Origin: Verrucomicrobiales bacterium
GTDB lineage: Bacteria > Verrucomicrobiota > Verrucomicrobiia > Limisphaerales > F1-12-MAGs170
Direction: 5' to 3'
Length of the DNA: 56,321 nucleotides
Assembly (NCBI GenBank): GCA_005777315.1
Contig: SXMN01000051.1
Span: 1 to 56,321 of the forward strand
The translations under genes were made by a program, and so were the position numbers. Positions 10,417 through 49,365 of the stretch are shown one piece after another; the first letter of the stretch is position 1; each line of letters begins with the position of its first letter. Below the pieces are notes generated by a model. It ran no database searches and was not told where the DNA came from. It saw nothing but the letters and a program-made list of their open reading frames with translations.

Positions 10417-11301
10417 TCAACGAACCGTCGGGTCGAAATGTCCATTCCACCAGGCGTTGTTCACGCGAGTTGAGCCCGCTTTTCCGCCATCCAACTGCGC
10501 CGCAGTCATTGCTTCGGCGTGGCCATCGACCAACATAACATTGACTCGTCCGTCATTTCGGGCGGAGGGCGTGGCGCGGTGGGCATCTGAGCCGTCATCG
10601 CCACCTTCGTAATAAGCGTTGCCAGAACCGGGCGTCACGCTGGTTTTCCGGCTGCCCATCGAGCCGAGCGCTTGCGAGCCGAGCGGAGGGTCGAGCACAT
10701 AGACCCCGGAACCGTCCGCGCCGAAGGGCAGGCTGGGAGATCCTTTGCGCGCGCCTTTTGTATCGCCGAGCACCACCGTGTTCGCCGGAGCCGCGATGGA
10801 AGCGTCTGAAGCGTGGAACGGCGGCACTCCACCGGGAGTCCGCGTGTTGCCAAGATACTGATAATTGAACCCGTAGCCTCCGTAGTATCGGGTAACTCCC
10901 GGAGTTTCGACGCCGCCAGGAGCCGTGTGCGCGAATGGTTTGCTCATAAAGGATCGTTCCTCCGGGCGAAGCTGCGGGCTGAGATACACCTCCATGTTTT
11001 GCATGTAAGTGAAGATAAGGTCCGCCCAACGGACCCGTGCCTCGCCCGGCACGGAGGGCAACGAGTGGCCGGGGAAACGTGTGTTGAAGTCGTCGCGGTA
11101 AAGCGTCAAACCCAGCCCAAGCTGTCGCAGATTGTTAAGGCTCGCGATGGATCTGGCCTTTACCTTGGCGCGCGCCAGCGCCGGCATGAGCATGCCCGCC
11201 AGGATCGCGATGATGGCAATAACCACCAGCAGTTCAATCAAAGTGAACCCGGTGGCGGAGTTCGACGACCGGCCCATCCTTCTGGCTGATTTCGTTTTCA
11301 T
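10417..11301 (-). CDS. Type II secretion-like pseudopilin (prepilin-type cleavage domain, H-X9-DG tail)
   Basis: The protein has a type III (prepilin) signal: a short basic leader, then [20 protein letters not shown], cut after the Gly and N-methylated by a prepilin peptidase. I chose the ATG at 11301 ([13 protein letters not shown]) over an upstream frame start because it gives a normal leader. The globular part has [16 protein letters not shown] and near the C-terminus [14 protein letters not shown], the hallmarks of the large planctomycete/verrucomicrobial pseudopilin family. Members are present in many copies per genome and are thought to act in secretion or surface structures. It is an isolated gene, divergent from the ferredoxin gene. 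The length (294 residues) is typical. Confidence 0.9.
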
Positions 11302-12877: not shown

Positions 12878-12883
12878 AGCATA

Positions 12884-12921
12884 ACCGAGGAGACCGTGGG
12901 ATAGCCGACAGTCTCCTCGGT
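12884..12921. terminator. Bidirectional terminator hairpin
   Basis: Perfect 11-base arms ACCGAGGAGAC (12884-12894) and GTCTCCTCGGT (12911-12921) lie in the 70-base gap between two convergent genes (E1-alpha ends at 12877, the lactonase-like gene at 12948). A short TTGCTTTT follows on the plus strand. Its placement makes a shared terminator the natural reading. Confidence 0.7.
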
Positions 12922-12947
12922 GAACCTGGTTGCTTTTGCGTGGACGC

Positions 12948-14159
12948 TCAGTGAGTAGCCACGAACTTTACGCACACCGGTTTGCCGACAGTGATGGTCT
13001 GGCCTGCGGAGGCGAGCTTTCCGGTGACCGAATCGATTGCGAAGACTGCCACCGAATCGGATTCTTGATTTGCCGCGAGCAGCCACCGGCCTGAAGGATC
13101 AATGCCAAAGCTCCTTGGAATCTTGCCGAGAGTGGATTGGTGCTGGACGAGGGAAACTTTGCCACTTGCCTCATCAATGCCGAAGACAGCAATGGTGTTA
13201 TGGCCTCGATTCGAGCCATAAACAAACTTTCCACCCGGATGCACCTCGATCTCAGCGGTGCTGTACTCGGGTCGCATCGACTCTCCAGCCGGCAATGTGG
13301 AAACCGTCTGAATCGGTTGCAGGGCTCCTTTGGAAGCGTCGTATTTGAATGCCGTCAAGGTGCAGGTGATCTCGTTGATCACGTAGCCGTGGTTGTTCTT
13401 TGGATCGAACGCGAAATGTCGCGGGCCTGAGCCTGCCGGCACCACGCCTCCCGGAGGGTTGTTCGCCACGATTGTTCCCTTGGCGGAGTCATATTTGAAA
13501 ACGAGCACCTGATCGAGGCCAAGATCGGCTATGAACGCGAAGCGATTGGCGTTGTCGAGCGTCGCGCAATGCGCGTGGGGTTTTTCCTGCCGGCTCTTGT
13601 TCACGCTCGAACCGGTGTGCTGCACGAAAGCGGATGCCGCCCCCAATCGCCGGTCTTTCCCGACCGGGAGGACCGTGGTGCTGCCGCCTCCGTAATTGGC
13701 CACAATCACATGAGCGCCCGCCTTATCGACGATGATATGGCACGGGCCGTCACCGATGGATGGCTGCTGGTTGAGCTGGGACAGTCTGCCGGTCGAGGAA
13801 TCGATCGAATACCCCGTGACCGCTCCGCTCCTTTTTCCCTGGAAGTCCGCCACTTCATTCACCGCGTAGAGATGCTTACCGTCGGGATGAATCGCTAGAA
13901 AGGAGGGGCTGGAGGTTTCAGCCGCAAGCGCGGGTTCGCCGAGCTTACCCGTTCGCCCATCAAACCGTGAGACATAGATCCCCTTGCTTTTACCGCCCGT
14001 ATAAGTGCCGAAGTAAACGAGCATTTCGCTGCTGTCAGCGGCGGACACTGTTGAGGGTGGAAAGGAAATGAGCATGGCAGCGGTGAGGATGAGTGAGCGC
14101 AGAAGCGCGGTGACCTTCAGGAGGTTGCTGGAATCGGAGTTCGAGGGGCGCGAGTTCAT
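12948..14159 (-). CDS. Secreted lactonase-family seven-bladed beta-propeller (6-phosphogluconolactonase-like)
   Basis: This 403-residue protein has an N-terminal signal peptide (hydrophobic LLRSLILTAAMLISFPP ending at VSAAD) and then a lactonase (YbhE/Pgl-type) propeller. Repeated family motifs are visible: FGTYTGGKSKGIY, PSFLAIHPDGKHLYAVNE, GDGPCHI, KPHAHCA, GPRHFAFDP, GSNRGHNTIAVF and IPRSFGIDPSGRWLLAANQ. Export makes a role in central 6-phosphogluconolactone hydrolysis unlikely; periplasmic lactone hydrolysis of sugar acids is an inference. It is transcribed alone, with a 213-base divergent spacer before the Acg-like gene. Confidence 0.88.
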   Translation of the reverse strand: MNSRPSNSDSSNLLKVTALLRSLILTAAMLISFPPSTVSAADSSEMLVYFGTYTGGKSKGIYVSRFDGRTGKLGEPALAAETSSPSFLAIHPDGKHLYAVNEVADFQGKRSGAVTGYSIDSSTGRLSQLNQQPSIGDGPCHIIVDKAGAHVIVANYGGGSTTVLPVGKDRRLGAASAFVQHTGSSVNKSRQEKPHAHCATLDNANRFAFIADLGLDQVLVFKYDSAKGTIVANNPPGGVVPAGSGPRHFAFDPKNNHGYVINEITCTLTAFKYDASKGALQPIQTVSTLPAGESMRPEYSTAEIEVHPGGKFVYGSNRGHNTIAVFGIDEASGKVSLVQHQSTLGKIPRSFGIDPSGRWLLAANQESDSVAVFAIDSVTGKLASAGQTITVGKPVCVKFVATH

Positions 14160-14372
14160 GTTGGTGGTGAAGTGTTGGAGTGTGGTTGCGTTTCAGGGAT
14201 TGGAGTATCAAACGCAAACAAGTCCTACAAGCTGGGAGTATTCAAGAGGGGCGGCAAACCTGAAGGTTCGTCATCGCGAATCAAGTTCAGTCCATAAAAT
14301 GACAACGTTCGTGTGGTTGATTATTGAGTGTTGTCCGAAGCTGCAGATGGTGAGTCAGTTCACCTGATTATT

Positions 14373-15440
14373 ATGATGAACAAACCCGACTTTGCGATCC
14401 ATTCTCCCGCGCTTCCGAAGAGTTCACCTGTCGCTCTGTGGGATGTTTCAGCGGAGGATTTCCCGCACGAGGGCACGACGCTGGAGAAATGGAAGTTCCT
14501 GCTGAAGTACGCGGTCCTCGCGCCATCGAGCCACAACTCACAACCCTGGCTTTTCCATATCCGGGGCAATGAAGTCGAGCTATATGCGGACCGCACGCGT
14601 TCCTGTCACGTCGTCGATCCGGATGATCGGGAGATGATCATCAGTTGTGGTTGCGCGCTTTTCCATTTGAGGGCCGCGATGGCACATTTCGCATACGCGG
14701 GCGAGATTGCCATCCTGCCGGACTCGAATGATCCAGATCTGCTGGCCCGGGTGCGGTTGGGAACTGACGAGGAGAAGTCCGCGGAGGAAAGCATCCTGTT
14801 CTACGCGATCCCAAAACGGCGCACGAACCGCCAGCCTTTCATGCAGGATCCCGTGCCGCCTTCGTTGCTCCATGCGTTGAGCGACGCGGCCAGGTCGGAG
14901 AACTCCTGGTTGGAGGTGATTCGGACTGAAGAGATGCGGCACTCACTGGCGGAGTTGATTGCCGAAGGCGACCGGAGACAGTGGGCGAACAAGAGCTTCC
15001 GTCTGGAACTCGCCGCGTGGATTCACCCAAACCGCGGTTGGGCTCGCGACGGCATCCCTGGTTACGCACAGGGCATTGAAGACCTGATCTCCTACGCGGG
15101 TCCGCTCGTGGTGCGGACGTTCAACATGGGAGAGGGGCAGGCCGCGATGGACCACGAACTCGCCACCGGCTCGCCCGCGCTGGTGGTTCTCGGAACCAAT
15201 AATGACACCGTCCTGGATTGGATTCACGCGGGTCAGGCGCTGGCGAGAGTGTTGCTCAGAGCCCGGGTCGAAGATGTGTGGGCTTCCTTCCTGGACCAGG
15301 CAATCGAAGTTCCCGACTTGCGCACGCGCTTCGCCACGGCCATGGGCTCGACGTCCTACCCACAGGCGTGCCTTCGCCTGGGATTCAGCGCCGATGTCAA
15401 ACCGACGCCCCGACGGGACGTTGAAGAAATGTTGATCTAA
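14373..15440 (+). CDS. Acg-like nitroreductase-fold flavoprotein
   Basis: This is a 355-residue member of the Acg (nitroreductase-like, DosR-regulon type) family, thought to bind FMN without being a proven reductase. Evidence is the N-terminal KYAVLAPSSHNSQPW motif, the LYADRTR...DPDDREMIISCGCALF segment, PKRRTNRQPF, and the C-terminal YPQACLRLGF. Two adjacent ATGs (14373 and 14376) begin the protein; the longer frame starting at 14328 has no family homology. It is followed after 42 bases by a small unknown gene on the same strand. No two-component genes are nearby, so hypoxia regulation as in mycobacteria cannot be assumed. Confidence 0.85.
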   Translation: MMNKPDFAIHSPALPKSSPVALWDVSAEDFPHEGTTLEKWKFLLKYAVLAPSSHNSQPWLFHIRGNEVELYADRTRSCHVVDPDDREMIISCGCALFHLRAAMAHFAYAGEIAILPDSNDPDLLARVRLGTDEEKSAEESILFYAIPKRRTNRQPFMQDPVPPSLLHALSDAARSENSWLEVIRTEEMRHSLAELIAEGDRRQWANKSFRLELAAWIHPNRGWARDGIPGYAQGIEDLISYAGPLVVRTFNMGEGQAAMDHELATGSPALVVLGTNNDTVLDWIHAGQALARVLLRARVEDVWASFLDQAIEVPDLRTRFATAMGSTSYPQACLRLGFSADVKPTPRRDVEEMLI

Positions 15441-15482
15441 CCCCATCAACCCTTGAGAACGCTCAGCGAAAGAAGTGAGATC

Positions 15483-15809
15483 GTGAACACCAGAAGTGTG
15501 GCGGATTCCATCTTCGAGGTGTGCGCAACGGCGCGATCCGTCTTCGACGATGAAACTTCCAGACTTTCCATCGAGCTTCGAAGTTTCATTCGCCGGGTGA
15601 ACATGCGCGGACGTGATGATTATCTTCACCCAGCGTGGTTGCCAAAGGACGATCAGGTTGTTGACACAGTTCCTTTGGAAGAAGCCTCCACCGAGTCCAA
15701 GGAGGTTTTTCGGCGGTGGGCTCGCAAAGTTCGTGAATCCATTCCCGCAGGAAGCGAATTCGATTCAAGCCTTACTGAGTGCCAGCCACGTGACACCGCC
15801 GAAGCGTAA
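15483..15809 (+). CDS. Small hypothetical protein
   Basis: I recognise no family. This is about 108 residues, mostly helical and charged, with SADSIF-like start (NTRSVADSIFEV), a Trp-containing centre (DDYLHPAWLPKDDQ) and a C-terminal EVFRRWARKVRES helix. The GTG at 15483 is a plausible start; a TTG at 15453 is the alternative. It follows the Acg-like gene and may be co-transcribed. Codon use looks like real coding sequence, but confidence is moderate. Confidence 0.45.
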   Translation: MNTRSVADSIFEVCATARSVFDDETSRLSIELRSFIRRVNMRGRDDYLHPAWLPKDDQVVDTVPLEEASTESKEVFRRWARKVRESIPAGSEFDSSLTECQPRDTAEA

Positions 15810-15889
15810 CAGCCGCAACAATTCGCAGGAGCGCCGAATGAATTCCCAAGGCGCAGAAGGCGAATCAGTTTCTCGAATCTCGAGGATGT

Positions 15890-17344
15890 TCAGCCGCCGA
15901 TCCAGGCTGACCGGTCCTCCTCGAGACTTTCCATTGTGACAGGCTTGCCATCGACGGCATCCGCATCCGTGTCACTGACTATGTGAAAAAAACTGTGCCC
16001 CCAGCGGTCACGATTCCCGCGCTTGAGGCAGGTAAAAGCTGCAATATCCCGCAAGTGGGAACAAGCCGCGTGAACAAGCACCGCCCAATGCCCCGTCGGT
16101 TCATTGAACTTCACTTCCCAGCCGTTCAACTGCGTGACGAAATCAACGCCGAGCCCGAGATCCTGGATGTACCTGACAAGTTCACTGTGGTTGAGGATGT
16201 CGTCCCGCACATTTTCGGAGATCGGGTTCGCCACCAGTTGCATCAGTTCGGCGACACTCTGAAGGCGCATGCTTCGCAGCGTTGTCGCACGGGCAATGGC
16301 CTCGGCAAGCCAGTTCAGTTCAGCCGGAAGTTGCTCGGTAATGAGGGTCGTTCCGGTTTCGAGAATGAGTCGATGCCGCTCATCCTCGGCCAGCGTCTCC
16401 CAATCGGGAACCTCATGAGTCAGGAGCGCTTTGACCAGATACCAGATCTCGGAGAAAAGAATGCTGCGTTGTCGCAACTGGGTTTCCACGCGCGGAAGGA
16501 GCTCCTTCAAATGTGGATATGCGTGCCACACATCCTTGATCTGTGTGTCACGGAAGCGATAGAGCTCCGGAAGCGCCAGCAACTGGTCGCCCGTGGCATC
16601 CGCAATCGCCAGGCGGGAGCGTCCCGTCGTCATCTCGAACAACGCCACGCCCGCCGCGAAAATATCCGAGGACTGGCTCAAAGGGATTCCTGTCTGCACA
16701 TTTGAGGTGTCGATCACCAGCTCCGCATAATCGGGCGTGGCAGAATACACATACTTGTCCGCCTCCCGGCTGTGGCGCGGCGTGAAGAACGCCCCAAGAT
16801 CCACAAACTTGATGCGCCCGTCCGGCAGCCGGATCACATTGTCCGGCTTGAAATCGATCAGCACGATTCCATGCTCGTGGAACTTCGTGACAATCGTCAG
16901 GGTTTCATAAATCGCGGCGCGAAGCTGATCGGTCCAGCCCTCAAATGGCGCGTTCGTGGACGCCTGGCACCAATCCATGAGATTCTCGCCATTGAGAAAC
17001 TCCATCGCGATGTATGCCTGCTTCTTTTCGTAATCGATGTTGGCGCCGTAAAAGCGCGGCACGCATTTCTGCAATTGCCCGATCGCGTCGATGTCCTGGA
17101 AATTCTCCTTCTCGAGATTGAACGCAACGTAAGGCCCATAGCTCACCTCGTCTGCCTTGCCGCACTGGAGATCGAACATCTTCACGACGACTCCGGGATG
17201 ATCGACCCTGTAAACGGACGTTTCCCCGTGCTCACTCATCAGCGTGCTCAGTCGCATCCGCCCAAGCCCGCGCAATTCCACGGGCACGCCCGTAAACTTC
17301 CCGTCGTTCGATTTGTTGCTCTCAATTTCGGCCATAGACGACAT
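15890..17344 (-). CDS. Atypical Hanks-type serine/threonine protein kinase with unknown C-terminal domain
   Basis: This protein has about 484 residues. The N-terminal kinase fold has a beta-3 Lys (VVVKMF, about Lys55), a catalytic loop reading IDFKPDN (Asp164, Lys166, Asn169) and a metal-binding DLG (Asp182) in place of DFG. The His and Arg of the HRD motif are missing (LID instead), so it is a non-RD kinase, but the catalytic Asp, Lys and Asn remain and activity is plausible. Residues after about 330 form a helical region with no family that I know, ending with a 'WGHSFFHIVSD' segment. There is no transmembrane helix and no PASTA repeat, so it looks cytoplasmic. Start: ATG at 17344 or 17335, as the frame upstream lacks homology. 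Confidence 0.8.
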   Translation of the reverse strand: MSSMAEIESNKSNDGKFTGVPVELRGLGRMRLSTLMSEHGETSVYRVDHPGVVVKMFDLQCGKADEVSYGPYVAFNLEKENFQDIDAIGQLQKCVPRFYGANIDYEKKQAYIAMEFLNGENLMDWCQASTNAPFEGWTDQLRAAIYETLTIVTKFHEHGIVLIDFKPDNVIRLPDGRIKFVDLGAFFTPRHSREADKYVYSATPDYAELVIDTSNVQTGIPLSQSSDIFAAGVALFEMTTGRSRLAIADATGDQLLALPELYRFRDTQIKDVWHAYPHLKELLPRVETQLRQRSILFSEIWYLVKALLTHEVPDWETLAEDERHRLILETGTTLITEQLPAELNWLAEAIARATTLRSMRLQSVAELMQLVANPISENVRDDILNHSELVRYIQDLGLGVDFVTQLNGWEVKFNEPTGHWAVLVHAACSHLRDIAAFTCLKRGNRDRWGHSFFHIVSDTDADAVDGKPVTMESLEEDRSAWIGG

Positions 17345-17569
17345 CCCGGCGGCGGTGCGGACCAAATGATGAATCTGTGCACGTGCCGGGATTGGCGTTG
17401 TTTGTAGGCGGTCGATCACCTTTCGTCGAGGGGGAAACAGAAATCTCAATCAGACGCTGGTGCCATGTCTCAGATATGAGCGTCAGTTGCGGATACAGAA
17501 GTGTGATCAATCGAAGCGATGGGATTGCACCGTTCGATGAATTCCGCACCTCAGCTGCATGGCCACGGA

Positions 17570-18328
17570 TCAAACCATCGTCACTGGCTCCGGACGGCTT
17601 GGGCGAGAACCCGGCTGGGCGCCGCGTTTCAGGCAATTGATGAAGTAGGGAAGCAACTGTTTCTTTCGGGAAACAACACCCGCCATTTCATAGATGCCCG
17701 ATTCGCTCGATGGATAATCGATTGACTTCATGAAAGCCGGATCGCCTGACACAAGCAGCATCGAGCTTTTTCTGACTACATCCGTGATGAACAGCGCGGC
17801 GAAAAAATAGTTGGATGCCCGCCTGTGGCTCTCAAGCGCTTTCAGGAGATCCGCCTTGCGTTTCCAAAACTGGTCAAAACCGAGTTCCTCGATTTGAGCG
17901 ACGGAGAATTTGCGTCCCGACTCTTCAAACTCCTTGCAGTCAATTTTGATGGCTTGCTCGGGCGGCACCGATGTCAAAACCGAACCCGATGCGAATAATT
18001 TCTCAGTAAACTCAGCCGCGCTGACCCCGGTGATCTGCTCCAGTGTCTTCAACATCTGAACATCCCGTTCGGTCGTCGTGGGCGAAGTCAGATTGAGCGT
18101 GTCCGAAACCATACCCGCCAGAAGGAGGCCGGCGATCGGCACCGGGAGTTCCACGTGATTGCGCAAGAAACATTCCGCGACAATCGTACTCGTGGACCCG
18201 ACGGGCTCGTTTCGAAACAAGATCGGCTGGGAAGTTGTGAGCGCGCCGAGGCGATGGTGGTCAATGATCTCCACGATCTCAATCTGGTCGGCGCCTTCGA
18301 CCGCCTGCGAGAGTTCGTTGTGGTCCAC
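17570..18328 (-). CDS. Family II inorganic pyrophosphatase, segment 3 of 3 (DHH C-part and DHHA2)
   Basis: This is the C-terminal part of a manganese-dependent inorganic pyrophosphatase whose reading frame is cut by TAG codons. Coding similarity actually starts at 18364, immediately after the second TAG: FLKKVDRKLILVDHNE. The metal- and substrate-binding motifs are intact: LVDHNE, IDHHRLG (the DHH signature), SDTLNLTSPTTTERD, and in the DHHA2 domain FWKRKADLL and SRKKQLLP. Intact motifs after two stops suggest either very recent inactivation or that the stops are passed in translation. If translation restarts, the GTG at 18328 (within VDHNE) would be a poor start, because it removes the first strand. 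Confidence 0.8.
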   Translation of the reverse strand: MDHNELSQAVEGADQIEIVEIIDHHRLGALTTSQPILFRNEPVGSTSTIVAECFLRNHVELPVPIAGLLLAGMVSDTLNLTSPTTTERDVQMLKTLEQITGVSAAEFTEKLFASGSVLTSVPPEQAIKIDCKEFEESGRKFSVAQIEELGFDQFWKRKADLLKALESHRRASNYFFAALFITDVVRKSSMLLVSGDPAFMKSIDYPSSESGIYEMAGVVSRKKQLLPYFINCLKRGAQPGSRPSRPEPVTMV

Positions 18329-18364
18329 GAGAATCAGCTTGCGATCGACCTTCTTCAGAAAATC

Positions 18365-18367
18365 CTA
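18365..18367 (-). other. Internal in-frame TAG in pyrophosphatase gene (second)
   Basis: The reading frame runs GGA ATC CTC GCC AAG TAG GAT TTT CTG with no frame change. The protein on each side continues a normal CBS-to-DHH junction (GILAK*DFLKKVDRK). From memory of the family a Ser or Thr is expected at this point. A single C-to-A change in TCG would give TAG. Confidence 0.75.
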
Positions 18368-18919
18368 CTTGGCGAGGATTCCCACCATCCGTCCGCCGGC
18401 ATCCATCACAGGAAACACATGAAAGTTGGAATTTGCCGCATCAGGCTGGATCTCCCTCAGAACTTCGTCCTCGCGGAACGAAAGAAAGTTTTCGTGAACC
18501 ATGTGCCGCATCGTGACGGAGGCCCGGCAGAGCATGGTGGTGGTCGTGGTGTCGTGAGGAGAATGCAGGATCGTCACACGCTTGTTTCGGGCGCGCTCGA
18601 TCAGACCGGCGTCCACCGCCGATACACCAGTAGTGATCATCACGCGGACTCCTGCCTCGACGGCTGCTTCCTGGATGTCCGCCCGATCCCCCACGACAGC
18701 GACAATTTGAGTGCGGGCAAATTTCCGGACTCGCTCCGCAAACGACTCCCTGCTCATCACCGTCACGATCATGGTCAGGTCTTCCTCAATCTCCAGATCC
18801 TCCCCCGTGATGATTTCCGCCTGGAGCGTCCGGGCCATGCTGTTGATCGAGGCGAGAATCCGGCGGGATTCGACAAGGCGGGACCGATCGGGACAAAAGA
18901 CCTTGTTCATCTTGAACAC
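18365..18919 (-). CDS. Family II inorganic pyrophosphatase, segment 2 of 3 (end of CBS1, DRTGG, CBS2)
   Basis: This is the middle, regulatory part of the same enzyme, exactly in frame with the pieces on both sides. It completes the first CBS repeat (VFKMNKVFCP), continues with a DRTGG domain (MARTLQAEIITG...VGDRADIQEAAVEAGVRVMI) and then a second CBS repeat (CRASVTMRHM...VFPVMDAGGRMVGILAK). CBS repeats in this family bind adenine nucleotides and control activity. The segment is ended by TAG at 18365-18367. A separate initiation codon is doubtful: the only candidate is a GTG directly after the first TAG. Confidence 0.8.
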   Translation of the reverse strand: MFKMNKVFCPDRSRLVESRRILASINSMARTLQAEIITGEDLEIEEDLTMIVTVMSRESFAERVRKFARTQIVAVVGDRADIQEAAVEAGVRVMITTGVSAVDAGLIERARNKRVTILHSPHDTTTTTMLCRASVTMRHMVHENFLSFREDEVLREIQPDAANSNFHVFPVMDAGGRMVGILAK

Positions 18920-18922
18920 CTA
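18920..18922 (-). other. Internal in-frame TAG in pyrophosphatase gene (first)
   Basis: The frame reads GTC TGC AAG GGG CTG GCC TAG GTG TTC AAG ATG with no shift. The flanking residues are those of one continuous CBS repeat, so the stop interrupts a domain rather than separating two genes. Confidence 0.75.
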
Positions 18923-19270
18923 GGCCAGCCCCTTGCAGACGCCGCCTTCTCCAACCACCGGCAGGACGCGGATCCCTCGCTGATCCATGAGTGACAACGC
19001 TTCGAAAAGCGTCGCTTCCAGCGTCACAACCGCCGGATCAGGCGTCATCACGTCGCTCACTTTCGGTGAAACGTCGGCGATGAGCCTCGGGGCAGCCACC
19101 CCAAATGTCTGGAGCACGAAAGCAATGCGGTCGTTGATGTCGCCACACCTCGCAGCCTCGGCATTCGCAAATCCCGTCCTTCGCTTGAATTCGGCATATC
19201 CGATCGCGGAACAAATCGCATCCGTATCAGGATTGCGATGTCCGATGACAATAAGTTCTGAGCAGTTCAT
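18920..19270 (-). CDS. Family II inorganic pyrophosphatase, segment 1 of 3 (DHH N-part, start of CBS1)
   Basis: This is the N-terminal part. MNCSELIVIGHRNPDTDAIC carries the first metal-binding motif (His and two Asp of GHxNPDTD), and the first CBS repeat begins at VSDVMTPDPAVVTLEATLFE. The ATG at 19270 is chosen over an upstream GTG because it directly precedes the first strand. Translation meets a TAG at 18920-18922 inside the CBS repeat (VCKGLA*VFKM), where relatives have a small residue, usually Ser. Without readthrough only a 116-residue fragment with no active site would be made. Confidence 0.8.
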   Translation of the reverse strand: MNCSELIVIGHRNPDTDAICSAIGYAEFKRRTGFANAEAARCGDINDRIAFVLQTFGVAAPRLIADVSPKVSDVMTPDPAVVTLEATLFEALSLMDQRGIRVLPVVGEGGVCKGLA

Positions 19271-20049
19271 GAGCTGATTGTTGTTGATGATACAGGCAGG
19301 CTCTTCACCTCGCACGACATTTCAGGCGGGAAACAGGGATGAGCCGGGCATTTACAGGTTGGCGGTAAGGGAATGGAGTCTCTCACTTCCGGCTGCGTTG
19401 GCAGGGCGCCGGTGGTGACGGCGCTTTCCCGCAGGAGAGAATGTAGAGCGAAATGCGAAATGGGTGCAGGCGCTATCAACCACATCAGTCCAAAGAACGA
19501 CTTCAACCACCACCAGCTTTTGATTGCACCAGGCGAGAGGTGGCTCCGCAAAGCATTGTGCCATCAAGAACCCGGGACAATTGATCACCATACAGAGCTT
19601 GTAGGACGAAGCCTGACTCGGTTGTCGGTTGTCCTCTGGCAAGGTGGGATTTCGAGCATGTTCACCGGACAATTTGGAGGTTGGATAAGAGACGAATTAA
19701 CAGTGAAAACCGGGAAAGAACTGCATGGTGGTGACGAGAATCGCCGGGCAAAAGATTCCGAGCGAAGACTCCGTCGAGTTCTACGCGGGCAATCGTCAGA
19801 GTCTGAACTACGGAAATGTGGGGCATTCGGATGATTCTGCTTGTGGGAGCAAATCTGGCAGTCCGTTTGCTGATGTCGTGTCGAACTTAGCTGGCAGATG
19901 AAATGGATTTCATCGCGAGCCGATTTAACCGGAAGCCGCCGCCATGGATGGATGCGCAAGCTTCGGACGATCTGCATCACGACTGGGTGGGATCCTTCTT
20001 CAGGCTGCGAAGACAGCAAGCGCTATTAACATACGAACACTGAAAGCCT
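19271..20049. other. Long non-coding gap between pyrophosphatase and sigma factor genes
   Basis: These 779 bases contain several short open frames on both strands, none with recognisable domains, a good start site or coding-like composition. Base composition is lower in GC than the neighbouring genes. The gap should hold the promoters of both divergent genes. I could not identify a confident -35/-10 pair, a repeat or an RNA gene. Confidence 0.4.
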
Positions 20050-20904
20050 ATGACCCCCACACTGCTACAAATAGACACCCGCACTCCCGCGACTGGTCTG
20101 GAGATGGAAGCCAGCTTTGACTGCAAGCAAACATCCGAGAGCGACCTTCCGAATCTCTGGAAGCGTTATGCGCGTGCCGGACAAGGCAGCGCCGCGGAAG
20201 ACACTCTGGTGCAATATTTCCTGCCATTGGTGCGTGCCGTTGTGGGACGCATCGCCTCAACCCTGCCTCCGCATGTCAGCTCGGAAGATCTCCATAGCGC
20301 AGGGTTGGTCGGCTTGCTGGATGCCGTCAGAAGGTATGACTCAAAATGCGGAACTGCTTTCCCGACATACGCCCGTGTTCGCATCCGGGGTGCCGCGTTT
20401 GATGAGCTGCGCCGGCTCGATTGGGTTCCTCGCTCCGTCCATGAGAAGAGCAGAAAAGTTGAGAAGGCGATGCGGGATTTCGAACAGCGCAACGGCAAGG
20501 CGCCCAATGAGGTCGAAATGGCAAAGGCGTTGAGCATGAAGCTGGACGATTATCAGGATCTGCTGGAAGAGATCAAACCTGCGACGTTCGTGTGTCTGGA
20601 TTCACTGCGGAACGCGGAAGCAGAAGACGGCTCCTCCCAGTATGAGACCATTGCTGACGAGTCACAGGCCGATCCGAGCGAGGGCGTGATGGCCAATGAG
20701 ATGTCTCACATGATCGCCGATCGCCTGGACCAACTACCGGAAATGCAGCGTCGCGTGCTTGCCCTCTACTATTTCGAGGATCTGCGGCTTCGCGAGATCG
20801 CGGAGATCTTTGGGGTGACCGAATCCCGTATCTGCCAGATTCACTCGCAGGCGATTCAAAATCTGAAGTCCTTCCTGCGACAAGATGATCTTATGGCAGC
20901 TTGA
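20050..20904 (+). CDS. FliA/WhiG-type (sigma-28 family) RNA polymerase sigma factor
   Basis: This 284-residue group 3 sigma factor has region 2 at about 58-130 (YFLPLVRAVVGRIASTLP, SSEDLHSAGLVGLLDAVRRY, FPTYARVRIRGAAFDELRR), region 3 at about 135-180 (KVEKAMRDFEQRNGKAPNEV) and region 4 at about 225-278 (LPEMQRRVLALYYFEDLRLR, EIAEIFGVTESRICQIHSQA). The N-terminal 40 residues are extra compared with FliA. An ATG at 20104 is an alternative start. No flagellar, chemotaxis or anti-sigma gene is near, so a non-flagellar regulon is likely. Confidence 0.92.
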   Translation: MTPTLLQIDTRTPATGLEMEASFDCKQTSESDLPNLWKRYARAGQGSAAEDTLVQYFLPLVRAVVGRIASTLPPHVSSEDLHSAGLVGLLDAVRRYDSKCGTAFPTYARVRIRGAAFDELRRLDWVPRSVHEKSRKVEKAMRDFEQRNGKAPNEVEMAKALSMKLDDYQDLLEEIKPATFVCLDSLRNAEAEDGSSQYETIADESQADPSEGVMANEMSHMIADRLDQLPEMQRRVLALYYFEDLRLREIAEIFGVTESRICQIHSQAIQNLKSFLRQDDLMAA

Positions 20905-21009
20905 GGAGCGGGGTGGCCTGACTCGCTGGGGAATTGATCCAGTAGAGGGGCCGGGGAGATCGGCATGATTTGAATGATTTGGTGTTGAGGTTGTGTGTTG
21001 TGTTGCCGT

Positions 21010-21037
21010 AGCCGGCGAGTGGAAACGCTCGCCGGCT
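21010..21037. repeat. REP-like hairpin downstream of sigma factor
   Basis: Perfect 10-base arms AGCCGGCGAG (21010-21019) and CTCGCCGGCT (21028-21037) surround an 8-base loop. It lies 105 bases after the sigma factor stop and just before the transposase remnant. It may stop transcription, but it also looks like the other dispersed GC-rich palindromes in this window. Confidence 0.55.
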
Positions 21038-21129
21038 GCGTGTGTTTTGTGGCAAGCAGATTGGCCTCAAGGTCGGCGGCAACTTCCTCCAATGAGCCGA
21101 CCGTCGGAGAGGGATCTGTCACCCGCAAC

Positions 21130-21279
21130 CGCGAACTCATCAACCGCAGGGACTTTGCCACCCGCAGCCAGGCCCGCACCGAGATCTTCGATTACATCGA
21201 ATGCTTCTACAATTCCCAGCGCTCTCACAGCGCCCTCAACTACTCTTCTCCCGTTGACTTCGAACTCCTAAACAACTAA
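21130..21279 (+). pseudogene. IS3-family transposase (OrfB) C-terminal remnant
   Basis: The frame ends in RRDFATRSQARTEIFDYIEC followed by FYNSQRSHSALNYSSPVDFE, the classic end of the IS3-group DDE transposase (FYNxxRxHSALxYxSPxxFE). It includes the last helix after the catalytic Glu; the catalytic triad and the whole of OrfA are gone. About 50 residues survive and stop at TAA. I see no terminal inverted repeats, so it is a decayed scar rather than a movable element. Confidence 0.85.
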
Positions 21280-21659
21280 CCAAATGCTCCAACTTTTCTC
21301 TCCGTTTTTTCGAAGCAAGCCCACATGAGACTGCGGTGTCCGCGCCGACGAAAGTTTCCGACCATTGCAACAGCCGCAAATCGTACACGCTTGCCGCGCG
21401 CTCACGCTCGGATGCGCAGGCGGTTGGGAACGGTGGTTCCATGGATTTCTGAGATCGCTTTGTATTTATTGAGTTTAGCGGAAGAATGTATGGGCGATTG
21501 ATCTCTGGGGTGTTGTCGCGCGCATTCGCGCACTCATCGAGAGCATGAATTCGATGCGGATGGAGAATGGATGACTTCGTCGCCCCCACCCAAACTGAAC
21601 GGACAGTTTTCCAACACCCATCTTTCAACTTCGTGGCTGTCGATGAACAGCCACAGGCC
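21280..21659. other. Non-coding gap, nothing recognised
   Basis: This lies between the transposase remnant and the 3' end of the esterase/SMP-30 gene. A minus-strand open frame crosses it but overlaps the transposase remnant and has no homology or coding character. It may be further decayed insertion-sequence material. Confidence 0.35.
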
Positions 21660-23579
21660 CTAAAGCCGCGGGGTTGGTGGACGGATGGGATCGCGCGCTG
21701 ACAAGACTCCTCTTACCTTGGTCTTGCGCTTGAAAACTTTGTCGGAGCACGTGACGAACAGCGTGTCCAAATTCTCCCCACCAAACACTGTATGCGACAG
21801 CCAACGGTTTTGCGGTTTGGGGATGATGCCGTTGACCCGGCCGGCCTGATCACAGAATTGCACGCCAAGCGTCGTCGCCACATAGAGGCGTCCCTGCGTA
21901 TCGTAAGTCATCCCGTCCGCCCCGCTCTCACCCGAGCCAGCCGGCGTGTGCAGATGAAAGTAAGGTTGTTTGTGCGCCAACGTTCCATCTTCCTGAATCT
22001 GGTACGAATAGACAAACTCTCCCCTCGTGTCGGCCACGATGAGGAGCGATTGATCCGGCGATAATCGCACGCCGTTGGGAAATGCGATTCCCGTGTCCAC
22101 TTCCTTCTTTTCGCTCCCCGCCTTGATCAACCAGAGCCTTTTGTTGCCTGGATCGGTGACGTAAACGTTCCCGTTCCGCGCCACGCAGAGATCGTTGCTT
22201 TCCAATCCCTCGGCCACCACGCGCTCCGTGCCATCGGCTTTGAAGGCGCTGATCCGTTTGCGCCCGTTCTGACAAACGTAGAGATCTCCATCGGGGCCAA
22301 ACATCAGCCCGTTCGCCCCACCGGTATCATCCTTGAACACCGACACTTTCCCATTGAGCCCGATCTTGTGAATCCTGTTGTTGGGGATGTCCGTGAAGAA
22401 TACTTCACGACGCTCGTTGACGGCCGGGCCTTCCGTGAACTTGAATCCCTCCGCAACAAGCTGCCAGCCTTCGCCGGGAACCAGCACGTCCATCAAAGGC
22501 TGTTTTGAATCCTGCCCGGCCTTGATCGGTTCTGGATATCCCCGCCAGAGCCAGCGCATCGCATCAGGAAAGATGGAGCCGCCATGTTTTCCGTTATGCC
22601 CGCCGTCGCCCCACTCCGTTTTGAAATCGTAACCGGCGAACTGCAGGGCGGACGCCATGTCCTGATTCGCCTGCCACCAGTTTCCGCCATAGATGTTCAA
22701 GTCGCCGGTGCCATCTTGAAGGAATACACGAAGGGGCTTCGGTTCCGTTTTGCGGACCAGGGTCGGATACTCGTTGCCACCGCGCAGGCCGACATACGTT
22801 CCAATCGTGCTGAACACCCGGCTGAATTCCCCCGGACGCTCCCAGGCCGCCGTGAACGCGCAGATCGCTCCTGAACTGGCACCTGCTATTGCCCGGCTGT
22901 TGCCGTCCGCCTTCAACTGATACTTCGCAGCCACCGCAGGCAGAATTTCATCGAGGAGGAAGCGCGCGTAACGATCCCCTCGTTCGTCGTATTCCCAGCT
23001 TCGATTAAACCGTGCCAGTGCGTTCGTTGTCCGGGCAGGAACCACTCCAGGGTTGATGAAAACACCAATGGTGACGGGCATCTCCTTGCGATGAATCAGG
23101 TTGTCGAAAACCACAGGGACGCGGTACTGGCCGTTCGTGCTGACATATCCGCCACCGTCCTGGAAGATCATCACGCAGGCCGACTCGGATGCAGTGTATT
23201 GGAAAGGAACGTAAATCCAGTAATCCCGCTCTGTTCCTGGAAAAATCTTGCTGCTGGTCCAATGTTCCTTCGTCACCGTACCCTTTGGCACGCCATCTTG
23301 AGGCATCGAATCCGGACCAAGCTTGTAGTCGTCAACGGCCCGTGCGGATTGCACCAGTAGAGCCAAGACCGCGGGAAAAACTACCAATGACAGCAAGCGC
23401 CACGGGTGCAGGTTCGAGGCGCGAACTCGGGAAGATGCCCACAGCGACCTCTGATCAAGTGCGCAACGGAACAAATGAGCCCGCGCCGCTGCCGGGATTT
23501 GTAGCATATCCCGCAGTCTTGTGAGTAGTTGAAGCGCCACGAAGGCGATGGCTGATAGGGGTATCAATGGTGATTTCAT
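21660..23579 (-). CDS. Exported esterase / SMP-30 gluconolactonase fusion protein
   Basis: This 639-residue two-domain protein has a hydrophobic export signal ending near residue 85 (LLSLVVFPAVLALLVQSARA). The listed ATG may be too early; an ATG at 23507 is another choice. Residues about 95-345 are an alpha/beta hydrolase of the esterase D/Fes type, with the nucleophile in AGASSGAICAF and the likely catalytic His in GDGGHNGKHGG. Residues about 370-620 are an SMP-30/gluconolactonase propeller with EGPAVNERREVFFTDI, GGANGLMFGPDGDLYVCQNG, SNDLCVARNGNVYVTDP and FPNGVRLSPDQSLL. This combination, also known in planctomycetes and Verrucomicrobiota, suggests hydrolysis of an ester and then a lactone on plant-derived sugars in the periplasm; that is an inference. 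Confidence 0.88.
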   Translation of the reverse strand: MKSPLIPLSAIAFVALQLLTRLRDMLQIPAAARAHLFRCALDQRSLWASSRVRASNLHPWRLLSLVVFPAVLALLVQSARAVDDYKLGPDSMPQDGVPKGTVTKEHWTSSKIFPGTERDYWIYVPFQYTASESACVMIFQDGGGYVSTNGQYRVPVVFDNLIHRKEMPVTIGVFINPGVVPARTTNALARFNRSWEYDERGDRYARFLLDEILPAVAAKYQLKADGNSRAIAGASSGAICAFTAAWERPGEFSRVFSTIGTYVGLRGGNEYPTLVRKTEPKPLRVFLQDGTGDLNIYGGNWWQANQDMASALQFAGYDFKTEWGDGGHNGKHGGSIFPDAMRWLWRGYPEPIKAGQDSKQPLMDVLVPGEGWQLVAEGFKFTEGPAVNERREVFFTDIPNNRIHKIGLNGKVSVFKDDTGGANGLMFGPDGDLYVCQNGRKRISAFKADGTERVVAEGLESNDLCVARNGNVYVTDPGNKRLWLIKAGSEKKEVDTGIAFPNGVRLSPDQSLLIVADTRGEFVYSYQIQEDGTLAHKQPYFHLHTPAGSGESGADGMTYDTQGRLYVATTLGVQFCDQAGRVNGIIPKPQNRWLSHTVFGGENLDTLFVTCSDKVFKRKTKVRGVLSARDPIRPPTPRL

Positions 23580-23727
23580 GGGTGATCAAGGCGCAGCGTA
23601 GGCGTTCAAGAAACCCGTGGTCAAGGACTCGAAGGGATCGGCCACTTCCTGGGGCGCATCTCCATAGTAGAGTTAAGGCTGGTCGGGGAGAGAACGTGTC
23701 CGCAATCTGTATCAAACCACGAAGCGT

Positions 23728-42433: not shown

Positions 42434-45400
42434 TCACGGACGAATGCGGTAGAACTTCTGAGATCCATCGCCGGTGTTGACGTTCAGGGTCGGTGCGCCA
42501 GCCGGCACATCTGTCCACGGCCCCAATAGGCTGTCGGAGACCTGTAGTTTTTGCGACGGCGGCCAGGAAATGGTGAGCGTGTTTCCGACCGGGGTCAGCG
42601 AGATTTTAGCGCAGTTTACCGTCACGCTGAACGAGCAGATCAGCGGCGTGGATGAGCCTTTGTAAACACAGGTCACCTGGGTCTTGCCCACCGGGAACAA
42701 TCCCGGTGGTGGGTTGCATTCCATCGGCAACTCCTCGCAGCCGATGCTGACGAATGCCTTGAAATCCACAAATGCTCCATTGTCATCAATGCACGGGACA
42801 ACGATGTCCTGCGGACAATGAACCACCGGTTTTGCATTGGGATCGGGCGGCGGGCCGATGACGATGAATTTCGTCACACACGAACCTGTATTGCCACGGC
42901 CATCGGTGACGCTGAGAACGATGTCATGCTGGCCCGGTCCGACGAGCGTTCCCGGTGGCGGCTCCTGGTTCACCGATGCGATGCCTGCAGTCCCGGCGGC
43001 CGAAGACTGCGGGCAGTTGTCGGTGTAGGTCACCTTCTGCCGCAGATCGGGCACCGGGGTTTTGCAAGGCACCCCTCCAACACTCAAAGGTGTCTTGTTC
43101 AAATCCACCGTAATTGAGTCGGGGCACTTCACAACAGGCGGAGTGGTGTCGCCAAAGGAGAAGCAGACGGGCCAGCCGTAGGATTCGTAATCGGACCAGC
43201 CGTACTGGGTGAGCCCGACCGGCTGGGGCGAGAGAACACTGTGAACGCCGGGCGTGACAGGAACGCTTGCGCCAGAAAAGCCGCTCAAGCCGATCGCGGA
43301 GAAGAATCCAGGCGGAATTGGCGCGCCGTCCATTTGCACCAGTCCGGCGCTGGCGGTCGCGCTCGGGGCGATCACGTTGATGAAGTGCGAAGCAAATCCG
43401 CTTTCCGGCGCACAGAACCGATACTGCGTGTTGAAGAGTGCCCGATGCGGCAGTTGCATCATGAAGGGATCGGACTGCTTGACGAGATCGAAGTCAGAGC
43501 TGTTCGCGTACTGCGTGACGTGAATCGGACCGTTCGCCGTGATACGCACGCCAAACCCGAGAACGATTTGGAACATCCTGCCACGGTCAAGAGTCGCCAC
43601 ATTGAAGCCATTGATGAAGACCTGGGTGTCGTCTGCCGCCGCAAGAACTCGAATCGTGTCGCCCTTCGAGCGTGTCTTGAGAGGAAAGGTGAAGTACTCG
43701 GTGCCCCAGCGTTTGGTTGGGATCAGTTGTTCAACAAGGTAATCACAGAAGGAGCGTGAAGTGGACTGGATGTTCGCGCAGGCATGACCGCCAAAGGCGG
43801 CGACCGGCTTGTCCGCCGAGATCAGCGTGCCGGAAAGATCCTGCGGTGGGCCGTTCAGGTTCCGCAGTTGGTAGGTTTCGCCCTGCTGCAACTTGATGAC
43901 GTAAGGAAATCCTGAATCGTATCCTTGAGTCACCACGGACGGAATGATCGTGACCGTGGTGTCATTCTCGGTGGCGACAAGGGCGAATTGTGTGCCATTC
44001 AATTCTGGCTGTGGCGAATTGGAATTGGAAAAACTCTGGATGATATAATCCAAACCGAGCGCCTCTGTCTGGATGGCAAGGAACCCGTCGGACGTGTACT
44101 TCACCTTGCTCAAGCCATGAACACTGACTGGCTGGCTCGCGATGAGGTGAATGCCCTTCTTCTCGATCAAATCATTGGCATCACCGAGATCCGCGTCCTC
44201 CGGCAAGAGGATCGTCACGCAACCCACTGCGGGAATCGTGACGGCCTTTTGGAATTTCAAACCGGCTATCTGCACCGTCACCGATGTCCCTGGATTCCCC
44301 ACCACGGACAACTCTGGCCTCACCGGATTCGCCGGATCGGGAGCGTAATTCCCGGGAAACGTCAGCCAGAAATCGGTGCCCGCGCAGGTCAGGTCGCAAT
44401 TCTCCCCACGCTCGATCTCGACGCGGTAATCCTCCACCTCGCCGATGGGCGAAAAGCCGGTGAAATCGAGACCGCCCTCGCGGCTGAAGCGGAATCGCGC
44501 GAAGGTGACGCCCGGTTTCACCCGAAGAGGAACCATGAACTTGAGGACGTTCACCCCGGGCACGAGTGCCTGGTTTGTGAAAATGCGATCTTCAGGATCG
44601 GCCCAAGAAAAATTCGCGTTGAAATCGATCCACGCGTCCAGACGACCGGTGGTGCTGGCAATGACTTCAATGCTTGCCTCGCCTCCGGGCATGAGGGGAG
44701 TCAGAAACCGGACCCCATCCTCGTCATCCAAAGCCGGATCAACGCCATCGTCACCAAGCGCGGCAGGATCAGGCTGCCCATCCAATTCACCGTCAATCAA
44801 CTTGCCGAGGAAAAAATTCGGGTTGATGCCGTGACGGGCGCCGTTCCGCGAGAGGGTCGTCGGATAACCGCCCGAGAGCAGATCGGATAGAAGCTGAGGC
44901 GCATCGCCGAAGTCCAGCAACTGGCCGCTGATCGCGACCTTGTAGTCCTCGACTTCGCCAATGGGTGCCAAACCGTCAAAATTCAGACCTCCTTCACGAC
45001 TGAACCGGAATCGTGCATACGTCTCACCTGCTTTTGCCGAAGCGGGAACCGGGAATGTCAGGGTGTTTGCGCCTGCCACCAACGCCTGGCTGGTGAAAAT
45101 CTTTTCACCTGCGTCCGCCCACGAAAAGTTCGCGTTGAAATCCACCCACGCGTCCAGGCGTCCGCTTTGGGATGCTGTAACAACCACGGTCGCAATCGCG
45201 CCAGAGTTCAGCGGCCCTGGGAAGACCACTCCGTCTTCGTCGTCTGAAATAGAAGAGGATGCGCCATCGTCACCCAGGGCGTCAGAGCCAGGCTTTCCGT
45301 CTGGCTCGCCGTCGATCAGTTTGCCGAGAACAAATTTCGGGTCGATGGCATGCCGCGCGCCATTCCTCGACAGCGTTGTCGGATAACCTCCCGCGAGCAT

Positions 45401-47830
45401 GTCGGATTGCAGCTGCGGCGCGTCGCCAAAATCCAGCAACGAGCCACTGATCGTCACCTTGTAATCCTCGACCTCGCCAACAGGAGCCAAGCCGTCGAAG
45501 CTCAATCCTCCTTCCCTGCTGAAACGGAACCGCGCGTAAGTCTCAACCGCCTTTGCAGAGGCGGGAACCGGGAACGTCAGGGTGTTTGCGCCTGCCACAA
45601 GTGCCTGACTGGTGAAAATCTTCTCACCCGCATCCGCCCATGAAAAGTTCGCGTTGAAATCCATCCACGCGTCCAGACGACCGCTTTGGGAGGCGGTGAC
45701 AATCACGGTCGCTGTCGTGCCAGTGTTCAGCGCCCCGGAGAAGATCACCCCATCCTCATCGTCCGGGACAGCGGTGGATGCGGCGGCGGCGCCGAGTGCG
45801 TCCAGGCTGGGCTGGCCGTCAGGCTCGCCGTCGATCAATTTGCCGAGAACAAATTTCGGGTCGATGACATGTCGCGCGCCATTTCGCGAGAGTGTTGTCG
45901 GATAACCGCTCACCGCAAGTCCGGCCGGGAATTCCGGAGCGTCGCCGAAGTCGAACAACTGCGCACTGATGGCAACCCTGTAATCCTCGACCTCGCCGTC
46001 CGGCGCGGAGCCATCGAAACTCTTTACCCCCTCACGGCTGAAACGAAACCGGGCAAATGTGTCCCCTCCTTTCGCACCCGCCGGAACGTTGAAAGAAATC
46101 GTGTTCACACCGGGCACGAGAGATTGTCCGGCAAAAACCCGCTCGTTTGTTTCAACCCACGATCCATTGCCATTGAAATCAAGCCAGGCGTCCAATCTCC
46201 CGGATACGGATGCCACGACTTCGATCTTCACAGTTTCACCGGCATTCAGCGGCGTCAGGAAGCGGACTCCATCTTCGTCGTCGAGAACGGTGGGCGACGC
46301 TCCATCATCGCCGAGCGCATCAGCGCTTGGTTTCCCGTCCGGTTCGGCGTCTATGAGCTTTCCAAGGAAAACATCCTTCACAATCCGATGCCGGGCACCG
46401 TTGTTTTTGAGCGTGGTCGGGAAGGTCGGGTCAGGCACATCGCCAAAATCGAATTGGATCAACTGAACCGTGAGCCTCGCCGGATTACTGATGACAGCGC
46501 CGTTTTGATTGCTCACAACCACGTCATAGTTCCCTGCCCGGCTGGCTTGGACCGCAGGCAGAAGCAACGCTGCACCCGTTTCACCCGGCAGCGCCCTCTG
46601 ATTGAATCTCCATTGGAAAGCCAACGGAGGATCGCCCGCCGCGTCCACCTTCAGAACTACGTCGGCTCCCTCATCCACGGTCTGGCTCGCGGGATGATTG
46701 ACGATCGTCGGCGGTGAGCCCTTCCTGTTCACGGTGAAAACAAACGTGTCTGTTGCCGAAGCGGAACCGTCGCTCACGGAGACGGAAATCGTCGCAACTC
46801 CGCTTTGCCCGGAGGCCGGCTGGATGGCGATGGTTCTGTTCACGCCTGAACCACCAAGAGAAATGGCGCCGTCGGGAACCAAGTTCTGGTCTGACGATTT
46901 CGCACTCACAGTCAACGATGCGGCCTGATTGTCGATGTCATTCACTGCGAACGCCACCGGGCTGAGACTTGATCCCTGATCGACCGCCTGGTTCGGAATG
47001 TCAGATATCGTCGCAGGATCATTCACGGGAGCAACCGTTACAGTGAAGGTCGTGCTTGCCGTGCTGTTAGGGGAGGCGCCGTCATTCACCGTCACCGTGA
47101 TCGTCGCCGCTCCGTTGGCGTTCGACACAGGCGCGAAACCCAATGAACCCGTCGTATTCGGACTCGTGTAGCTCACGCTGGGATTGGGAATTAACCCCGT
47201 GTTGTCCGATGTCGCCGTGACGACGAGTGTCTGGCTCTCGTTGCTCGCTCCTGAACTGATCCCGGACAGCCCCACCGTTTGAGTTCCGGCATCCTCGTTG
47301 ATTGTAAGGTTCGAGAGCGAGTTGACCGTGGGAGGATCGTTCACCGGAGTGACTGTCACCGTGAAGCTCCGAGTGGCTGTCGTGTTCGAGCCATCGCTGA
47401 CGCTTACACTGATGTTGGCCGAGCCGTTCGCGTTTGGTGCTGGCGCGAAACTCAGGCTGCCGGCCGCACCAGGACTGCTGTAGTTCACGCCAGGATTGGG
47501 AATCAACCCGGTGTTGTCCGATGTGGCGGTCACAACCAGCGTCTGACTCTCATTGCTCGCGCCGGAGGTGATCCCCGTCAGATTCACCGTCTGCGTCCCG
47601 GCATCTTCGTTGATCGTCAGGCTGGAGATCGCGTCGAGCGTCGGCGGGTCATCCACTGGAGTAACCACCACAGTGAACGACACGCTCGCCGTGTTGTTCG
47701 CCGCGCCGCCATCATTGACTGTCACCGTGATCACCGCGCTCCCATTCGCGTTCGCCACGGGTGCGAAACTCAGGCTGCCCGTTGCACTCGGACTGCTGTA
47801 GTTCACGCTGGGATTGGGAATGAGCGACAT
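42434..47830 (-). CDS. Giant surface protein, segment after internal TAG: cadherin-like, Ig, four GEVED, IgGFc-binding, HYR, C-terminal tail
   Basis: This is the larger part of one roughly 2300-residue protein; its frame continues unbroken from 47881 after the TAG at 47882-47884. In order: three more cadherin-like repeats (NESQTL...TGLIPNPSV...NANGSA), one repeat of another type (ISDIPNQAVDQG), an Ig-like domain (PPTIVNHPASQTVDEGADVV), four GEVED domains at about 46460-44400 (DFGDAP...DEDGV...GRLDAWxDFN...GEVEDY), an IgGFc-binding-type domain (DFWLTFPGNYAPDP, IHLIASQPVSVHG), an HYR-like domain (VTYTDNCPQSS) and a tail ending in KFYRIRP. All parts are extracellular adhesion or binding folds. 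On its own this segment lacks a signal peptide, so it needs readthrough of the TAG to be exported. Confidence 0.8.
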   Translation of the reverse strand: MSLIPNPSVNYSSPSATGSLSFAPVANANGSAVITVTVNDGGAANNTASVSFTVVVTPVDDPPTLDAISSLTINEDAGTQTVNLTGITSGASNESQTLVVTATSDNTGLIPNPGVNYSSPGAAGSLSFAPAPNANGSANISVSVSDGSNTTATRSFTVTVTPVNDPPTVNSLSNLTINEDAGTQTVGLSGISSGASNESQTLVVTATSDNTGLIPNPSVSYTSPNTTGSLGFAPVSNANGAATITVTVNDGASPNSTASTTFTVTVAPVNDPATISDIPNQAVDQGSSLSPVAFAVNDIDNQAASLTVSAKSSDQNLVPDGAISLGGSGVNRTIAIQPASGQSGVATISVSVSDGSASATDTFVFTVNRKGSPPTIVNHPASQTVDEGADVVLKVDAAGDPPLAFQWRFNQRALPGETGAALLLPAVQASRAGNYDVVVSNQNGAVISNPARLTVQLIQFDFGDVPDPTFPTTLKNNGARHRIVKDVFLGKLIDAEPDGKPSADALGDDGASPTVLDDEDGVRFLTPLNAGETVKIEVVASVSGRLDAWLDFNGNGSWVETNERVFAGQSLVPGVNTISFNVPAGAKGGDTFARFRFSREGVKSFDGSAPDGEVEDYRVAISAQLFDFGDAPEFPAGLAVSGYPTTLSRNGARHVIDPKFVLGKLIDGEPDGQPSLDALGAAAASTAVPDDEDGVIFSGALNTGTTATVIVTASQSGRLDAWMDFNANFSWADAGEKIFTSQALVAGANTLTFPVPASAKAVETYARFRFSREGGLSFDGLAPVGEVEDYKVTISGSLLDFGDAPQLQSDMLAGGYPTTLSRNGARHAIDPKFVLGKLIDGEPDGKPGSDALGDDGASSSISDDEDGVVFPGPLNSGAIATVVVTASQSGRLDAWVDFNANFSWADAGEKIFTSQALVAGANTLTFPVPASAKAGETYARFRFSREGGLNFDGLAPIGEVEDYKVAISGQLLDFGDAPQLLSDLLSGGYPTTLSRNGARHGINPNFFLGKLIDGELDGQPDPAALGDDGVDPALDDEDGVRFLTPLMPGGEASIEVIASTTGRLDAWIDFNANFSWADPEDRIFTNQALVPGVNVLKFMVPLRVKPGVTFARFRFSREGGLDFTGFSPIGEVEDYRVEIERGENCDLTCAGTDFWLTFPGNYAPDPANPVRPELSVVGNPGTSVTVQIAGLKFQKAVTIPAVGCVTILLPEDADLGDANDLIEKKGIHLIASQPVSVHGLSKVKYTSDGFLAIQTEALGLDYIIQSFSNSNSPQPELNGTQFALVATENDTTVTIIPSVVTQGYDSGFPYVIKLQQGETYQLRNLNGPPQDLSGTLISADKPVAAFGGHACANIQSTSRSFCDYLVEQLIPTKRWGTEYFTFPLKTRSKGDTIRVLAAADDTQVFINGFNVATLDRGRMFQIVLGFGVRITANGPIHVTQYANSSDFDLVKQSDPFMMQLPHRALFNTQYRFCAPESGFASHFINVIAPSATASAGLVQMDGAPIPPGFFSAIGLSGFSGASVPVTPGVHSVLSPQPVGLTQYGWSDYESYGWPVCFSFGDTTPPVVKCPDSITVDLNKTPLSVGGVPCKTPVPDLRQKVTYTDNCPQSSAAGTAGIASVNQEPPPGTLVGPGQHDIVLSVTDGRGNTGSCVTKFIVIGPPPDPNAKPVVHCPQDIVVPCIDDNGAFVDFKAFVSIGCEELPMECNPPPGLFPVGKTQVTCVYKGSSTPLICSFSVTVNCAKISLTPVGNTLTISWPPSQKLQVSDSLLGPWTDVPAGAPTLNVNTGDGSQKFYRIRP
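44400..46460 (-). repeat. Four tandem GEVED repeats, about 520 bases each
   Basis: The units begin at about 46455, 45960, 45440 and 44925. The two central units are nearly identical over long stretches (for example SWADAGEKIFTSQALVAGAN and TYARFRFSREGGL), while the outer two differ more. This pattern is what recent duplication or gene conversion would give. Confidence 0.8.
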
Positions 47831-48460
47831 GTTGCCCGATGCAGCCGTGACGGTGAGCGTCTGGCTCTCGTTGCCCGCTCCCTAACTGATTCCAGACAGC
47901 GCCACCGCCTGCGTCCCGGCATCTTCGCTGATTGTGAGCGTCGGCAGCCGGTTGATCGTGGGCGGGTTGTTCACTGAACTCACCGTCACCGTAAATGTCC
48001 GGCTTGCCGGTGGATTGCTTCCACCATCGCTCACCGACACCGTGATGTTGGCCGAGCCGTTCGCGTTTGATGCTGGCGCAAAACTCAGGCTCCCGGTCGC
48101 GTTCTGGCTCGTGTAACTCACGCTCGGATTGGGAATCAACCCGGTGTTGTCCGATGTTGCTGTGACAGTGAGCGTCTGGCTCTCGTTGCTCGCACCAGAG
48201 TTGATCCCCGTCAGGTTCACCGTCTGGGTTCCGGCATTCTCACTGATCGTCAAATTTCCAATCGCGTCGAGTGTCGGCGGGTCATCCACTGGAGTAACCA
48301 CCACAGTGAACGACACGCTCGCCGTGTTGTTCGCCGCGCCGCCGTCATCGACTGTCACCGTGATCACCGCGCTCCCATTCGCGTTCGCCACAGGTGCGAA
48401 GCTCAGGCTGCCCGTTGCACTCGGACTGCTGTAGTTCACGCTCGGATTGGGAATCAAGCT
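47640..48460 (-). repeat. Near-identical repeats 633 bases apart in cadherin-like region
   Basis: The stretch starting at 47650 (on the plus strand CATCCACTGGAGTAACCACC) recurs at 48283 with only a few differences over about 170 bases. The offset of 633 bases equals two cadherin-like units, so a two-unit block has been copied. The internal TAG lies within this region. Confidence 0.75.
47882..47884 (-). other. Internal in-frame TAG in giant surface gene
   Basis: The frame reads GGA ATC AGT TAG GGA GCG GGC AAC GAG AGC. The equivalent position in the sister repeats of the same protein is Ser in three cases (codons TCC, TCA and TCT in GITSGASNES, GISSGASNES, GINSGASNES) and Ala in one. The reading frame is unchanged on both sides. 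Confidence 0.85.
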
Positions 48461-49348: not shown

Positions 49349-49365
49349 GACTCGGCTGAATTCTC

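Follow-up and report, generated by a model that had tools for sequence, protein, structure and literature searches.

An extra CBS-DRTGG family II pyrophosphatase gene with two in-frame TAG codons, a probable recent pseudogene, in a Limisphaerales genome

The window analysed here (56,321 nucleotides) is the whole of contig C20 of a Limisphaerales (Verrucomicrobiota) MAG, which amounts to 5.66 Mb in 367 contigs and is 82% complete. Its minus strand carries a single frame of 566 codons, running from an ATG at 19270 to a TGA at 17572-17570, that corresponds to a family II inorganic pyrophosphatase. Exactly two internal stops occur in this frame, both TAG, at codons 117 and 302 (Table 1), and tblastn alignments with more than 120 relatives contain no frameshift. 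These alignments span both TAG codons and cover about 550 residues, with identities mostly of 54-64%, which is far beyond chance. A sequence-only reading had described one frame broken by these two codons, and its coordinates are right.

Table 1. Coordinates of the pyrophosphatase gene, its parts and surroundings, and of the regions compared for RF1.
Feature	Position	Strand	Remarks
Stretch without long colinear match in the congener G001	12883..23670		10.8 kb; flanks match at 84-88%
Extra CBS-DRTGG family II inorganic pyrophosphatase gene	17570..19270	-	566 codons, two TAGs; probable recent pseudogene
Segment 1	18923..19270	-	N-terminal part of DHH domain and most of CBS1 (domain searches)
TAG, codon 117	18920..18922	-	S/T position of the CBS1 ribose-phosphate motif G-h-h-S/T-x-x-D/N
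Segment 2	18368..18919	-	End of CBS1, DRTGG, start of CBS2 (domain searches)
TAG, codon 302	18365..18367	-	Just ahead of the Asp in the CBS2 motif
Segment 3	17570..18364	-	End of CBS2, remaining DHH, DHHA2, stop TGA (domain searches and structure alignment)
RF1 region compared	L194 (C285) 1-2867 and L195 (C151) 1-1932 vs L168 13205-15920

The read-through protein contains the motifs GHRNPDTD, IDHHR, SDTLNLTSPTTT and SRKK, so that the family II signature is intact, as had been claimed, and Pfam and NCBIfam agree on the assignment. Pfam matches are to DHH (E 7e-22), CBS (8e-15), DRTGG (6e-19) and DHHA2 (1e-21). The protein also exceeds the cut-offs that NCBIfam sets for several models of Mn-dependent inorganic diphosphatase (NF011445, NF011443, NF011442), and segments 1, 2 and 3 each match independently. 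The sequence-only reading had listed both CBS repeats along with DRTGG; Pfam bears this out for DRTGG and for one CBS stretch, and the second CBS repeat is read from the sequence. Residues 69-312 align with two regulatory regions of known structure, 3l31 and 3l2b. Two of the features by which the family is recognized are thus present, namely a CBS pair and DRTGG inserted within the DHH domain, and DHH and DHHA2 domains with their catalytic motifs. The uninterrupted frame of a working gene is lacking, and because of the two TAGs we class the gene as a disrupted family relative, not as a working member.

Both stops fall on positions where relatives commonly have serine. In the codon 117 column, every one of the 122 readable relatives has Ser (encoded by TCG in 69 of the 98 whose codons were read), and this column belongs to the ribose-phosphate motif that CBS-PPases carry (PMC11172384). 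The codon 302 column is more variable, with Ser in 65, Thr in 52 and Ala in six. A few of the relatives’ rows are one genome present in two collections, and the named records among them belong mostly to Limisphaerales / Verrucomicrobia subdivision 3. One substitution separates each TAG from a codon for Ser. If random single substitutions produced two TAGs, the probability that both derive from TCG is 0.02-0.06; conditioned on any two nonsense changes, it is 0.005-0.016. Both ranges depend on the mutation model. The coincidence was noticed post hoc, and we consider it a surprise of limited size, only mild. None of the relatives’ copies that were read contains an internal stop, so the two stops are private to the window copy and family-wide programmed stops are ruled out. 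Relatives decayed by frameshifts, which the sequence-only reading had named as a refuting observation, were looked for as well, and again no relative read had an internal stop.

The search for another pyrophosphatase gene that had been proposed was rewarding. An intact copy without stops lies in the same genome at C307:1328-2968, and it is 58% identical to the window copy. It is sister to the copy of the same-genus genome G001 (SH-aLRT 100) and, judging from this placement, is the genus’s vertical copy, which the window copy is not. The latter clusters with copies from other genera (support 95), and an AU test rejects a clade of the window copy and the genus copies (p 0.022; the test was chosen once the first tree was known, and the branch of the window copy is long). 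A within-genus duplicate is thereby ruled out as its origin, and the window copy is most likely an extra gene acquired by transfer (a xenolog) or retained from an old duplication (a paralog). Since the genus’s vertical copy is intact, the window copy would be dispensable. Across the order Limisphaerales the gene was found in 181 of 320 genomes, nearly all with a single match, and phage and plasmid collections contain distant relatives only (about 28-35% in the best rows).

The gene sits in a stretch for which no long colinear counterpart was found in G001 (66% complete), where short pieces of it match elsewhere. This stretch contains genes for a lactonase, an Acg-family oxidoreductase, a kinase-like protein, the pyrophosphatase, a FliA/WhiG sigma factor and an esterase/SGL protein, the kinase-like and sigma factor genes adjoining the pyrophosphatase. 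Wrong binning of the contig is ruled out, because the regions on both sides match the same-genus genome. Also in the window, stretches of about 75-160 bases at 23366-23527 and 11098-11252 recur widely in G001 at 73-87% identity, and the latter falls within a gene with an N-terminal methylation motif. Adjacent genes of 537 and 1798 amino acids at 42434-49513 (minus strand) lie in the same frame with a TAG between them and have partly similar sequences.

Apart from its stops, the window copy looks virtually undamaged. Among 188 columns with conservation of 95% or more it has four sense differences, plus codon 117; the mean over all copies is 2.4, and several copies on comparably long branches have 7-13, so there is no missense excess. 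The divergence of segments 1-3 from relatives is proportional to the divergence among living relatives, with pN of 0.23-0.29 and pS near saturation. We conclude from these comparisons that the copy was under purifying selection until shortly before the present, from which present activity does not follow. The small number of conserved-column missense changes is consistent with a young silencing event, and after so recent an event relaxed constraint would not show yet. In a waiting-time calculation, the second nonsense change precedes any conserved-column missense change with P of about 0.11, and precedes the fifth with P of 0.44-0.48. The expectation that a true pseudogene should also show frameshifts, as the sequence-only reading had put it, therefore fails for a young one.

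TAG is an ordinary stop codon in this genome. It terminates 135 of 617 long ORFs (∼22%), and by a uniform count it makes up 21% of stops here and 18% in relatives, so it is not depleted. There is also no enrichment of backup stops, the next in-frame stop being no nearer behind TAG than behind TAA. Stop usage and next-stop distances together rule out genome-wide reassignment of TAG, which we reject; a weak or rare suppressor is possible. No tRNA with a CUA anticodon was found among 31 tRNA genes of this 82%-complete MAG, from which many expected tRNAs are missing. A survey for a second TAG at a conserved Ser gave none in 131,341 codons with non-self alignments (258 well-covered genes, about 1.6 of 5.66 Mb, with few congener genes). 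Ten high-scoring TAG read-through frames had no clear domain cut by the TAG, and four of them had no Pfam match. Those with strong domains resemble neighbouring genes (e.g., FliP and Bac_export_3), and a coding-potential scan for TAG-interrupted frames returned chiefly neighbouring genes and antisense shadows. At L183 5917, a TAG between two similar adjacent genes is aligned with Ser, Thr or Arg, and we read it as a probable gene boundary. At two further places (L187 10173, plus strand; L150 4027, minus strand) a TGA stands opposite Trp in short protein matches, and these resemble decayed gene remnants.

The release factors found are RF2 and a small protein resembling a release factor. This 82%-complete assembly yielded no RF1; G001 has it, and two further genomes (G015 and G038) are likewise without a full-strength RF1 match. 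The stretches that flank RF1 in G001 lie here on different contigs, near contig ends, and the locus is thus rearranged: one stretch continues into ABC-transporter genes and the other into a transposase. Because TAG is a frequent stop codon here, RF1 probably lies in the missing part of the assembly.

We think it likely that two nonsense substitutions recently silenced this gene, which as a second CBS-pyrophosphatase gene (a xenolog, or else an old paralog) was redundant. An extra copy, under purifying selection until recently, would have lost its function by these two changes. Translation would end at codon 117 and yield a fragment of 116 residues without a complete active site, the parts downstream of the stops would not usefully be made, and pyrophosphate hydrolysis would rest on the C307 copy. 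Recent silencing accounts for stops that are private, an intact copy elsewhere in the genome, normal TAG usage and the near absence of other damage. Serine at both stop sites is the single point that it does not predict. We also count against it that constraint looks unrelaxed in all three segments, with no frameshift, and that the assembly lacks RF1 and several tRNAs, so that a suppressor may have been missed. Among the three origins that the sequence-only reading had offered, double nonsense mutation is the best supported, given the intact vertical copy, and error and readthrough are less favoured.

Amber readthrough, in which a UAG-reading, supD-like tRNA-Ser or leaky termination supplies some full-length enzyme and keeps the gene alive at a low level, is in our judgement unlikely. 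It would explain the two Ser or Ser/Thr columns, for which chance gives a low probability, and the intact frame and conserved residues. It would also fit the missing RF1 with its rearranged neighbourhood, and in-frame stops with dN/dS below 1 have been argued to be widespread in bacteria (PMC7918605). But the tRNA genes found include none with a CUA anticodon, TAG is neither depleted nor backed up by further stops, no other TAG-at-Ser gene emerged from the part surveyed, the read-through frames with clear Pfam matches look like neighbouring genes, and the intact second copy removes the need for it. A bolder form, in which a verrucomicrobial lineage in the wild inserts serine by amber suppression, perhaps with an altered RF1, and TAG is mostly a stop but is read as Ser often enough to keep this gene under selection, we hold to be very improbable. 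An assembly or sequencing error, by which the organism really has sense codons at both sites, is also improbable. The source is a MAG in many contigs, and if TCG was the ancestral codon at both sites, each TAG arose by the same kind of change, from C to A in the coding strand. However, two errors would have to fall in a single gene, on a 56-kb contig that showed no clear interruption elsewhere, and random errors give about 20-30 missense changes per nonsense change, yet so few conserved columns differ. A split gene whose three segments are made separately, or a regulated restart with the TAGs as a switch, has very little to recommend it. GTG follows immediately after the first TAG and ATG lies four codons beyond it, but the nearest start-type codon after the second TAG is 12 codons downstream. 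Since both stops lie inside CBS folds and not at domain borders, a functional split is unlikely; in addition, the N- and C-terminal catalytic motifs would sit on separate chains, and neither stop recurs in the relatives read.

If recent silencing is correct, the gene shows a pseudogene cleanly at a very early age, and it warns against taking intact motifs and a lack of frameshifts as proof of readthrough. Suppression, if true, would give a natural example of a free-living bacterium in which UAG has two uses, one of them the insertion of serine. Amber suppression of the supD type inserts serine and would here restore the relatives’ residue, but no such tRNA was found and TAG is a normal stop. 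Belinky et al. (2021) described genes with in-frame stops under purifying selection, the stops being common to at least two species (PMC7918605). The window gene likewise has in-frame TAGs in otherwise constrained sequence, but its stops occur in no other genome read. Compared with CBS-DRTGG family II pyrophosphatases (CBS-PPases), it is the same in its domains, their order and the catalytic motifs, and differs in its two in-frame TAGs and in being additional to the genus’s own copy. From recent nonsense pseudogenes of redundant bacterial genes it differs in that its two stops are both at Ser sites and that conserved columns show no missense excess, but it shares with them an intact second copy, private stops and little other decay.
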